From NCBI RefSeq assembly GCF_022414575.1, contig NZ_JADWYQ010000007.1, forward strand, positions 1 to 64,000: 64,000 nt of DNA, read 5' to 3'. Source of the DNA: Streptomyces sp. MUM 178J. GTDB lineage: Bacteria > Actinomycetota > Actinomycetes > Streptomycetales > Streptomycetaceae. The translations under genes were made by a program, and so were the position numbers. Positions 13,567-46,190 of the stretch are shown piece by piece. The notes beneath the pieces are model-generated. The model saw only the letters and a program-made list of their open reading frames with translations. It was not told where the DNA came from and did no database searches. How positions within the stretch are numbered: position 1 is the stretch's first letter; each line of letters opens with the position of its first letter.

Positions 13567-14514
13567 TCAGGGGCGGCTGGTGAGGTAGCCGCCCATGGAG
13601 GTGAAGTACTCGGCCGCGGGCATCTCCCGGCCGTCCTCGGTCCGCACGCGGGTCACGGCCAGGCCGTGGTTGCGGCCGGTGCGGGCGTCGGCGCCTGCGA
13701 CGATCACCACGCCGTCGCCCTCGCGGTAGAAGATGCGGCCCGGCGTGCCGCCGTAGCGGCCCTGCGACACCACGGCGGAGAGCACCTCCAGGCGCTTGCC
13801 CCTGTGGAAGGCGTAGGCGCTGGGATAGGGGGCGGACTGCGCGCGGACCAGCCGCTCCAGGTCCTCGGCCGGCCAGTCCCAGTTGATGCGGATGTCTTCT
13901 TCGGACCGCTTGTGGAAGAAGGTGGCCCGCGAGCGGTCCTGCTTGGTGAACTCCGCCTGTCCGGAGGCGATCAGATCGAGCGCTCCGATCGTGACCGGCG
14001 CGATCAGGTCGACGGTCTTGTGGAACAGGTCGGTGGCCGTGTCCGTCCGTTCGACGGCGACGGCGCGCTGCATGACGATGTCGCCCGCGTCGAGTTCCTC
14101 GTCCATTATGTGCGCGGTGACGCCGACTTCGGGCTCGCCGTTGATGAGCGCCCAGATCAGCGGGGAGAAGCCGGCGTACTTGGGCAGCAGGGAGTCGTGC
14201 ACATTGAGCGTGCCGTGGCGCGGCAGACCGTAGATGCGCGGAGGGATCCAGGTGCGCCAGTTGTTGGCCACGATGATGTCGGGGTCGGCCCGCTTGAGGG
14301 TCTCGAACAGTTCGTCGTCGTCCGGCCGGTTGCGGATGACCACGGGGACGCCGTGCTCCTCGGCCAGGTCGGCGACCGAGTCGCTCCAGATCTTCTCGTA
14401 TGCGTGCTCGCTCTTGGGGTGGGTCACGACCGTCACCACGTCGTGCTCGGAGTCCAGGAGCGCTTGCAGGGTGCGGTGGCCCCAGGTCTGATAGCCGAAC
14501 ATGACGACCCGCAT
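13567..14514 (-). CDS. N5-hydroxyornithine formyltransferase (CchA-like)
   Basis: 315 residues of the methionyl-tRNA-formyltransferase fold. The catalytic Asn-His pair sits in LNVHDSLLPKY (about residues 104-114) and the family Asp in DEELDAGDIV. A C-terminal OB-like domain follows from about residue 210. In coelichelin-type clusters this enzyme transfers a formyl group from N10-formyltetrahydrofolate to the N5-hydroxy group of hydroxyornithine. Divergent from the ornithine monooxygenase gene across a region with two iron boxes, so both should be derepressed in iron starvation. The assignment rests on the fold and on the neighbours; the exact acceptor (free or N-alpha-acetylated hydroxyornithine) is open. 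Confidence 0.93.
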   Translation of the reverse strand: MRVVMFGYQTWGHRTLQALLDSEHDVVTVVTHPKSEHAYEKIWSDSVADLAEEHGVPVVIRNRPDDDELFETLKRADPDIIVANNWRTWIPPRIYGLPRHGTLNVHDSLLPKYAGFSPLIWALINGEPEVGVTAHIMDEELDAGDIVMQRAVAVERTDTATDLFHKTVDLIAPVTIGALDLIASGQAEFTKQDRSRATFFHKRSEEDIRINWDWPAEDLERLVRAQSAPYPSAYAFHRGKRLEVLSAVVSQGRYGGTPGRIFYREGDGVVIVAGADARTGRNHGLAVTRVRTEDGREMPAAEYFTSMGGYLTSRP

Positions 14515-14552
14515 CGGGTTCCTCCTCTGAAGAGCGATTGACCGCAGGCAAG

Positions 14553-14571
14553 TAAAGCAAGGCTTACCTAA
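14553..14571. promoter_or_regulatory. Iron box (DmdR/IdeR type), formyltransferase promoter
   Basis: taaagcaaggcttacctaa; its reverse complement begins TTAGGTAAGCC, a degenerate match to the DmdR consensus TTAGGTTAGGCTNACCTAA. It lies 39 bp upstream of the formyltransferase start. Confidence 0.75.
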
Positions 14572-14656
14572 GGCTGCAAATAGGCCGTGTTCTCAGGCAG
14601 TTTGACGGCGCGATGGGTGAAATGTCCTCTTTGTCCGCGTCGACAGCTTGGCCAGA

Positions 14657-14675
14657 TCAGGTTAGCTTTACCTAA
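14657..14675. promoter_or_regulatory. Iron box (DmdR/IdeR type), monooxygenase promoter
   Basis: tcaggttagctttacctaa matches the DmdR iron-box consensus at about 15 of 19 positions and lies 86 bp upstream of the monooxygenase start at 14762. With the box at 14553 it makes the divergent promoter region iron-repressed from both sides. Confidence 0.8.
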
Positions 14676-14761
14676 GTTCCGCTTGGCCGCCGCTCCGGTG
14701 TGTCCGGCGTCTTGTTCTCACCCACGCCTCACAGGCGGCTGTCCCGCACGATGGGAGTGAC

Positions 14762-44255: not shown

Positions 44256-45292
44256 GGAGCCACTCCATTCACGGGCAGGCCCAGGTGCTCGGGCAGGTCC
44301 AGGGCGACGTTCATGCACTGCACCGCGCCGCCGGCGGTGCCCTTCACCAGGTTGTCGATCGCGCTGACACAGATCAGCCGGCGGGCGGCCGGATCCACGG
44401 CCACCTGCACCTGGACGGTGTTCGAGCCGATGACCGATCCGGTGGACGGCCAGTGGCCCGGTGGCAGCAACCGGATGAACGGTTCACCGGCATATGCGGC
44501 TTCGAAGGCCGCCCGCACCTCGTCGAGGGCGCCGTCCTCGGCGACTCCGGGACGCAGCCGGGCGGAGCAGGTGGCGAGGATGCCGCGCGGCATGGGCGCC
44601 AGCGTCGGAGTGAACGACACGGTCACGCGCTCGCCCGCCGCCCGCGACAGGTTCTGCGTCAGCTCCGGAGTGTGCCGGTGGCCGCCGCCGACGCCGTAGG
44701 GCGTCATGGACCCCATCACCTCGGAGCCGAGCAGATGAGGCTTGACCGCCCGGCCGGCCCCGGACGTTCCGCTGGCGGCGGTGACCACGGCGTCCGGCTC
44801 GGCCAGCCGGGCCGTGTAGGCGGGGAAGAGCGCCAGGGTGACGGCCGTCGGATAGCACCCCGGTACGGCGATCCGGCGCGCACCGCGCAACTCGTCTCGC
44901 GCGCCGGGCAGTTCCGGCAGGCCGTAGGGCCAGGTCCCCGCGTGCTCCGTGCCGTAGTAGCGCACCCAGTCGGCGGCTTCGCGCAGCCGGAAGTCCGCCC
45001 CGCAGTCCACGACGAGGGCATCGTCAGCGAGCGCGCGGGCGAGCGGCGCCGACTCGCCGTGGGGGAGGGCGAGGAAGACCACGTCGTGCCCGCCCAGCAC
45101 CTCGGCCGAGGTCCGCTCCAGCGTCCGGTCGGCGAGCGCCGACAGCTGCGGCTGCGCTTCACCGAGCGGGCGGCCCGCGCTGCTGTGCGCCGTCACGGCG
45201 CCGATCCCCACGCCGGGATGGGACGTCAGCAGACGCAGCAGTTCGCCGCCGGCGTAGCCGCTGGCTCCGGCCACCGCGACCCGTACGGTCAT
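44252..45292 (-). CDS. argC: N-acetyl-gamma-glutamyl-phosphate reductase
   Basis: 346 residues from ATG 45292, preceded by AGGAAAGACGGA. N-terminal NADP-binding [18 protein letters not shown], catalytic Cys in [15 protein letters not shown] (about 145-159), and C-terminal [15 protein letters not shown], all standard for ArgC. Reduces N-acetylglutamyl phosphate to the semialdehyde. First gene of argC-argJ-argB. The same frame is open back to an ATG at 45424, only 9 nt from the iron box, so a 44-residue N-terminal extension or a long leader is possible; I prefer the internal start with its ribosome-binding site. Confidence 0.95.
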
Positions 45293-45432
45293 GTTCGTTC
45301 CGTCTTTCCTGATTGGCGAGGGTGTGCAGGGAGGGAGGGAGACGTCATGCGTCCCGGGCGCCCTGCGCAGCAGCAGGTCGCGCAGCAGGGCGTCCCTGGG
45401 GAAGACCACGCCGCCGCCTGCCATAGTGAAAC

Positions 45433-45451
45433 TTAGCCAAGCCTAACCTAA
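45433..45451. promoter_or_regulatory. Iron box upstream of argCJB operon
   Basis: ttagccaagcctaacctaa; read on the minus strand it begins TTAGGTTAGGCT, matching the DmdR consensus through its first 12 positions. It is 141 bp upstream of argC and 20 bp from the end of the siderophore-interacting protein gene. Confidence 0.85.
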
Positions 45452-45470
45452 CTTTGCCTGTGAGGGCGGT

Positions 45471-46190
45471 TCAGGCCGCCCGCCAGTAGCCGAGGGCGTA
45501 CAGACGCTCCCTCGGCACGCCGAGTTGTTTGCGTGCGAAGGCGGCGAGGTCCCGGGTGGTCGCCGTGTCGCAGGCGATCCAGACATAGGCCGTGTCGTCC
45601 AACTGCTGCGGAAGGGCCTCGCGGACCGCTTCGACGAGACTGCCGCCCCCGTCCCGCCGCGGCACCGGGATCAGTTCGCGGGAAGCGGCTCCGCCTCGCG
45701 GCGTGTGTTCGTCGTCGCGGGGATGGGACGTCTCGTACCAGATCACGGCCGGCGTCAGCGGCATCGAGTCGAGCAGCGAGTCGATGGCCGGGCGGGAGGC
45801 GGCGTCGCCGACGACGAGGAGCCGGGACGGCGCCGGGTCCGGCACGGTGAACTGTGAGCCCTGCACAGTCGCCTCGATCGTGTCGCCCGGCCTCGCGGCG
45901 CGCGCCCAGTCGCTGGCGCAACCGGGGTGCAGAACGAAGTCCATGCTGAACGCGCCGGTGGCGGGGTCCGGATCCACAAGCGTGTAGGCGCGCTGATGCG
46001 GTCGGCCGCCGTTGTCGAACCACAGGCGCACCCACATCGTCGGATGCACCCCCGTGGCCTGGAGCATTCCGCCGTCGTCGAAGGAGAGGCGGTGCAGCCG
46101 CTCCGAGATTCGCTCGTTCGATCGGACGGTGAACGTGAAGTCCTTGCCTCGCATGAGCTTGAGGACGGCGCCTTGCCAGCCGTGTCCCAC
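45471..46190 (-). CDS. Siderophore-interacting protein (FAD ferric-siderophore reductase)
   Basis: 239 residues from GTG 46190 after GGGGGAAG. FAD-binding motif QRAYTLVDPDPATGAF (about residues 66-81), a phosphate-binding GDAASRPAI near 125-133 and a C-terminal VWIACDTATTRDL region typical of the SIP (ViuB/FscN-like) family. It would reduce Fe(III) bound to the imported hydroxamate siderophore and release Fe(II). Coelichelin clusters instead carry an esterase (CchJ), absent here. Preceded by its own iron box. Confidence 0.93.
   Translation of the reverse strand: MGHGWQGAVLKLMRGKDFTFTVRSNERISERLHRLSFDDGGMLQATGVHPTMWVRLWFDNGGRPHQRAYTLVDPDPATGAFSMDFVLHPGCASDWARAARPGDTIEATVQGSQFTVPDPAPSRLLVVGDAASRPAIDSLLDSMPLTPAVIWYETSHPRDDEHTPRGGAASRELIPVPRRDGGGSLVEAVREALPQQLDDTAYVWIACDTATTRDLAAFARKQLGVPRERLYALGYWRAA

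Follow-up and report, generated by a model that had tools for sequence, protein, structure and literature searches.

A probable foroxymithine-type siderophore locus in Streptomyces sp. MUM 178J and a histidine missing from condensation domains before internal hydroxyornithine

A 64,000-nucleotide stretch of Streptomyces sp. MUM 178J (contig NZ_JADWYQ010000007.1, positions 1 to 64,000; hereafter the window), part of a 6.63-Mb genome in 127 contigs, carries at positions 13567 to 46190 a group of genes centered on one non-ribosomal peptide synthetase (NRPS). Our analyses make it probable that this locus is an iron-regulated siderophore cluster of the foroxymithine type, in which the third condensation (C) domain would acylate the N5-hydroxylamine of hydroxyornithine without a general-base histidine, and the product would leave the terminal C domain as a diketopiperazine. 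A foroxymithine-type product is the best reading of the locus, the actual product being a prediction from sequence. The histidine missing from the third C domain is also missing from most of its counterparts in related NRPSs.

The NRPS contains four adenylation (A), four thiolation (T) and five C domains, in agreement with the single four-module enzyme described in an earlier note, which a model had made from the sequence. No epimerization (E) or thioesterase (TE) domain was called in its 4849 residues. The enzyme and its A and C domains, all on the forward strand, are as follows.

17384..31933, forward: tetramodular NRPS of 4849 aa, C-A-T-C-A-T-C-A-T-C-A-T-C by domain calls
17480..18793, forward: C1, starter-type, HHILVDG, proposed to add an N-acetyl cap; placed by the tree among other first C domains
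18836..20353, forward: A1, DVWIVGAVNK, proposed formyl-hydroxyornithine
20660..21994, forward: C2, HHIVADG; falls in a large group of the tree that contains post-E C domains
22034..23563, forward: A2, DVWHFSLVDK, serine
24152..25459, forward: C3, HHLILWDG, with Leu2396 and without the catalytic second histidine; proposed to join serine to the N5-hydroxylamine of hydroxyornithine
25523..27163, forward: A3, DMENLGLINK, N5-hydroxyornithine
27449..28807, forward: C4, HHITTDE
28850..30343, forward: A4, DVFILGAVNK, proposed formyl-hydroxyornithine
30641..31924, forward: C5, terminal C domain, Tyr4540 in place of the catalytic histidine; proposed diketopiperazine release

The A-domain codes were recomputed by alignment, the check that the earlier note had called for, and the serine code of A2 and the hydroxyornithine code of A3 came out identical to those it had given. 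Its observation that A1 and A4 share a nearly identical code also stands, as the two differ at 2 of 10 positions. A run of SDQ repeats lies within A3 (NRPS residues about 2990-3009).

The residue order, the formyltransferase, the starter C domain and the terminal C domain in place of a TE domain are all consistent with the foroxymithine-family pathway that had been proposed for this DNA, and the formula then offered, C22H37N7O11, agrees with a hand count for acetyl-fhOrn-Ser-cyclo(hOrn-fhOrn), where hOrn is hydroxyornithine and fhOrn its formyl derivative (computed mass 575.2551). Ornithine would be hydroxylated at N5, and part of the hydroxyornithine would then be formylated. The starter C domain, which retains its HH pair and groups with other first C domains, would place a cap, presumably acetyl, on formyl-hydroxyornithine 1, and C2 would couple this capped residue to serine. 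C3 would couple the serine carbonyl to the N5-hydroxylamine of hydroxyornithine 3, forming an internal hydroxamate; the usual general-base histidine would be dispensable for this step, since at cellular pH the hydroxylamine would be unprotonated. At C4, the alpha-amine of formyl-hydroxyornithine 4 would be the acceptor for hydroxyornithine 3, and at the terminal C domain the free alpha-amine of residue 3 would attack the last thioester, releasing the chain as a diketopiperazine. As no E domain is present, all-L stereochemistry is expected.

In C3, Leu2396 aligns with the second, catalytic histidine of the solved PvdL structure (PDB), and the alignment is ungapped at this position. The predicted fold of the domain is intact (pLDDT 87.1, pTM 0.84), its best matches being condensation domains of the tyrocidine, surfactin and pyoverdine synthetases. 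Among the window and 68 named loci, the second histidine was missing in 65 of the 66 C domains that precede a hydroxyornithine A domain, with leucine in 65 and histidine in one. The available portions of three open-licence articles (PMC12971057, PMC4786211 and PMC10212144) do not mention this absence.

The comparison was extended by a class-wide search with C3 plus A3, a query that favours histidine-less domains; 72 of 296 genomes matched, and 40 longer regions were taken from 40 of them. The combined count covers the named loci (L001-L068), these regions (L101-L140, of which L101 is the same record as L002) and the window; it left out 35 C hits shorter than 381 aa, tallied 61 frame-ending C domains separately, and assigned acceptors without using the third letter of the hydroxyornithine code. 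Where the hydroxyornithine is internal, so that another C domain follows, none of the 88 preceding C domains has the histidine (77 Leu, 10 Val, 1 Phe), whereas 298 of the 299 C domains with other acceptors, starters included, retain it, the sole exception being a poorly aligned domain in L134. The 88 rows include many close orthologues and are not independent, forming 51 clusters at 90% identity and 11 at 70%; at the latter level, the histidine occurs in 0 of the 11 internal-hydroxyornithine clusters vs 97 of 98 other-acceptor clusters. All 14 C domains with an unassigned acceptor have the histidine; one domain before hydroxyornithine followed by E has Phe, and one whose follower was unseen has Val.

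A repeat search with A3 alone matched 32 of 394 genomes and supplied 17 more regions; every genome that it matched is represented by one of the two sets of regions or by the window. It yielded nine internal cases, none with the histidine (L141, L142, L143, L145, L146, L147, L149, L150 and L155), eight of which are new, as L141 is the same record as L046. L086 and L156, with followers unseen, also lack it, and in L144 and L148 a histidine-less C domain is the last of its frame, the hydroxyornithine A domain being in a different frame. L061 and L066 serve as internal controls: a histidine-less C domain precedes the internal hydroxyornithine, and the histidine is present in every other C domain that could be read, among them that preceding the last residue (the first C hit of each is too short for this).

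A different picture emerged where hydroxyornithine is the last residue of the frame, as the histidine is kept in 5 of the 11 preceding C domains. These five (L058, L120, L124, L125 and L139) all have a TE-like tail, assigned by a short motif only, and represent 5 of the 7 terminal hydroxyornithine modules with such a tail. Among the six without the histidine, L114 and L122 reach a contig end, and L137 and L138 are loci that we take, from their codes, to be of the coelichelin type. The remaining two, L121 and L128, combine a terminal hydroxyornithine and a TE-like tail with loss of the histidine, and thus run counter to the interpretation given below.

The second histidine is thought to help deprotonate or place an alpha-ammonium acceptor. 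The pKa of a hydroxylamine is near 6, and such an acceptor should therefore not need it. In foroxymithine and coelichelin, the internal hydroxyornithine is acylated on N5, and the same holds for scabichelin-type products, as judged by their count of hydroxamates. Considered with the histidine pattern, these structures led us to read the loss as a mark of side-chain attack; the data suggest that absence of the histidine is a sequence signature of side-chain hydroxamate bonds, a suggestion resting mostly on one clade. In its fullest form, to which we give about an even chance, this reading holds that N5-acylating C domains dropped the general-base histidine at least twice independently, that the residue distinguishes N5 from alpha-amine linkage, and that a parallel change from histidine to tyrosine marks most of the terminal C domains that close diketopiperazines. 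An alternative hypothesis, which we rate slightly lower, is that the missing histidine is a lineage marker that says nothing about mechanism, a single ancestor having passed on the C domain jointly with the hydroxyornithine A domain; 17 of the 18 histidine-less hydroxyornithine C domains in our tree indeed fall in one supported clade. However, the residue at this position varies (Leu, Val or Phe), with no histidine in any of the 88 rows over several families (as defined by code), and the near neighbour L058, in which hydroxyornithine is terminal, keeps it. In addition, the domain of L127 lies outside the clade, and a single clade for all was rejected (p-AU 0.015, in a test designed after the earlier trees).

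As to the terminal C domain, Tyr4540 of C5 stands opposite the catalytic histidine of a solved C domain. Tyrosine occupies this position in 58 of the 61 frame-ending C domains, the three with histidine being that of L036 and those of two frames of L050, one of them seemingly internal; L143, from the A3-only search, adds one more with histidine. Tyrosine at the catalytic position of the terminal C domain is thus usual, not required.

The 68 named loci were drawn from the best 80 of 134 stretches and include Streptomyces zaomyceticus, S. narbonensis and S. gardneri, with S. venezuelae not among them; the closest among these best stretches is that of Streptomyces sp. PR69, whose best NRPS segment is 92% identical. 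The exact domain order of the window was found in 36 of the 68, including S. narbonensis (L017), S. gardneri (L024) and S. zaomyceticus (L037), and L030 and L031 depart from it only by a split first C hit. Within this architecture, the only code differences are V or I as letter 5 of A1 and a single A4 letter in L035. A sister class of 11 loci (L022, L036, L038, L040, L045, L047, L048, L049, L055, L056 and L060) has the window's order plus an E domain after T2. In all 11, the serine code of A2 is replaced by DP[LQ]DFG[VL]IQK, while the A3 and A4 codes are unchanged and A1 is altered at most at letters 4 and 5; the accessory genes resemble those of the window where the contig extends far enough. 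The product predicted for the sister class from codes and domains is an analogue in which residue 2 is not serine and is probably D-configured; the swapped module 2 would thus point to a related siderophore. The remaining 19 loci are either fragments interrupted by a contig end or a frame break, or NRPSs of other and longer kinds. L143 and L150 keep the module 3 and 4 codes with a different A2 (eight letters, DAAFGVVQ) and no E domain, and represent a further module 2 variant.

The linker between T2 and C3 of the window is 117 aa long. Its origin as the remnant of a deleted E domain was considered and rejected, with a probability of about 1% in a profile comparison with sister-class E domains. 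A short stretch of this linker (23924-24100) is common to 44 NRPS frames of the E-less class and absent from L103 and L119, E-less NRPSs of another genus group; it matched none of the E or C profiles tried. The identity of the siderophore-binding protein to that of the window is 65-73% in 10 of the 11 sister loci and 74-96% in the window's class. The idea that this protein tracks the NRPS class was not upheld, as L036, a sister-class locus, is the exception at 84%, and the relation is an association only.

Several observations weigh against the foroxymithine-type assignment. The A1 and A4 codes are unlike DINYWGGIG, the residue 1 code of coelichelin-type NRPSs, so that formyl-hydroxyornithine at these two positions rests on the formyltransferase. 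In the C-domain tree, C2 and C3 cluster with post-E C domains even though the NRPS has no E domain: the supported group of 43 rows in which they fall, apart from C4 and C5, includes every one of the tree's nine post-E C domains, and C2's own subgroup contains post-T domains only. This placement makes the expected all-L stereochemistry less certain. Moreover, at up to three mismatches to the iron-box consensus, no site lies directly before the binding-protein gene or the NRPS gene.

Two other known siderophores have to be considered. Erythrochelin, made by EtcD of Saccharopolyspora erythraea, has four residues in the same order and a diketopiperazine end, with N5-acetyl groups and D-configured residues 1 and 2; its cluster is not known to contain a formyltransferase, the acetyltransferase being encoded elsewhere. 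A product of this kind, with the same backbone and N5-acetyl in place of N5-formyl, would match the window in residue order and release, and would suit the grouping of C2 and C3 with post-E domains. However, a formyltransferase is encoded in the cluster, with copies of 85-97% identity in all 47 loci of the window's class and the sister class, and the NRPS of the window has no E domain. The GNAT protein of the cluster resembles N-acetylglutamate synthase; no search for an acetyltransferase was made in the rest of the genome. We therefore consider an erythrochelin-type product unlikely.

The locus had also been called coelichelin-like. This description fits the accessory genes, as the coelichelin cluster of S. 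coelicolor (NRPS CchH) includes a formyltransferase, a monooxygenase and similar accessory genes, and it does not fit the NRPS. In coelichelin, threonine sits on N5 of hydroxyornithine, and the coelichelin-type loci L137 and L138 share with the window the hydroxyornithine code of A3 and a histidine-less C domain before it. Unlike the window, they consist of three modules with residue 1 code DINYWGGIG and two E domains, and lack both a starter and a terminal C domain; the window has four modules, a serine rather than a threonine code, both flanking C domains and no E domain. A coelichelin-type tripeptide-derived siderophore is thus ruled out by NRPS architecture, and as a description of the window product we hold it to be extremely improbable.

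Foroxymithine itself is known from other Streptomyces. According to the available text of PMC9769785, S. venezuelae makes foroxymithine, and its cluster in strain NRRL B-65442 is RS35125-35150, a match that the authors called tentative; the accessible part of PMC11005364 describes foroxymithine mutants of S. venezuelae, and that of PMC2630845 lists S. zaomyceticus strains as producers. S. zaomyceticus JCM 4864 (L037) has the window's domain order and the same codes except for I in place of V at the fifth letter of A1. By its description, the S. venezuelae locus is likewise an NRPS siderophore cluster, with the product class predicted for the window. As this cluster has been assigned, if tentatively, and mutants exist, the pathway is not a discovery, and the window adds a further genome to those that probably encode this known siderophore type.

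The remaining features of the locus are listed below; the ornithine hydroxylase and the single formyltransferase that the earlier note had placed beside the NRPS were both recovered by family profiles, and the MbtH gene, the second FecCD permease, the ATPase and the iron-box-like sites are additions to it.

13567..14514, reverse: N5-hydroxyornithine formyltransferase, PF00551 and PF02911; NVHDSLLP motif at residue 104
14657..14675, reverse: iron-box-like site in the gap separating the formyltransferase gene from the divergent monooxygenase gene, 3 mismatches to the consensus
14762..16114, forward: L-ornithine N5-monooxygenase, PF13434, E 9e-109
16232..17299, forward: siderophore substrate-binding lipoprotein, PF01497
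31930..32139, forward: MbtH-like protein, PF03621
32547..34364, reverse: ABC exporter half 1, PF00664 and PF00005
34361..36121, reverse: ABC exporter half 2; translation probably begins downstream of the listed TTG
36099-36117: iron-box-like site at ABC exporter half 2
36231..36249, forward: iron-box-like site ahead of FecCD permease 1
36286..37389, forward: FecCD permease 1, PF01032
37563..38591, forward: FecCD permease 2, PF01032, E 3e-76; start uncertain
38588..39517, forward: ABC ATPase, probably for siderophore uptake, PF00005
39692..41272, forward: amidohydrolase, PF07969; downstream in many of the loci
41313..41331, forward: iron-box-like palindrome ahead of the GNAT gene, 1 mismatch
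41351..41956, forward: GNAT protein akin to N-acetylglutamate synthase
42175..43107, reverse: argB (acetylglutamate kinase), TIGR00761 above cut-off
43104..44318, reverse: second argJ (ornithine acetyltransferase)
44252..45424, reverse: argC, TIGR01850 above cut-off
45433..45451, reverse: iron-box-like site ahead of argC
45471..46190, reverse: siderophore-interacting protein (SIP, ferric reductase), PF04954 and PF08021
46215..46233, reverse: iron-box-like site ahead of the SIP gene

The product would be exported by the ABC pumps, and iron would be recovered via the binding protein, the two FecCD permeases, the ATPase and the reductase. Where the two permease genes meet, a direct repeat of ~65 bp was observed, with copies 90 bp apart (37381-37535). 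Iron-box-like sites, called with the actinobacterial consensus allowing up to three mismatches, occur at six places (14657, 36099, 36231, 41313, 45433 and 46215), with 8 matches counting both strands vs 0 in 100 shuffles, which is consistent with the proposed iron regulation.

An iron-boxed cassette of GNAT, argB, argJ and argC genes (41313-45451) adjoins the siderophore genes, and this second argC-argJ-argB set may supply ornithine under iron starvation. A further argJ copy was found elsewhere in the genome, and at least the argJ of the cassette is therefore duplicated. Genomes of 40 of the 68 named loci were examined, and each has an argJ copy 64-73% identical to that of the window, which is taken as the housekeeping one. 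A second, window-like argJ (76-93% identity; split in two in L027, at 79 and 84%) was found in 18 of the 40. Assuming that the numbered contigs are the ones on which the loci lie, it is 11-21 kb from the NRPS end in 17 of the 18 and 54 kb away in L045; the window's own copy is 11 kb away. In L033, argJ may have dropped out of the cassette, as the match left between argB and argC (32614-33700) amounts to only ~11% of the gene.

The contributions of this analysis are the sister class and the histidine pattern, the latter put forward as a hypothesis. If it is true, it would provide a testable rule by which sequence reveals how the residues of a hydroxamate siderophore are bonded, something beyond the reach of A-domain codes, and nature would offer in the domains described a collection of C domains that seem to function without the canonical catalytic histidine.

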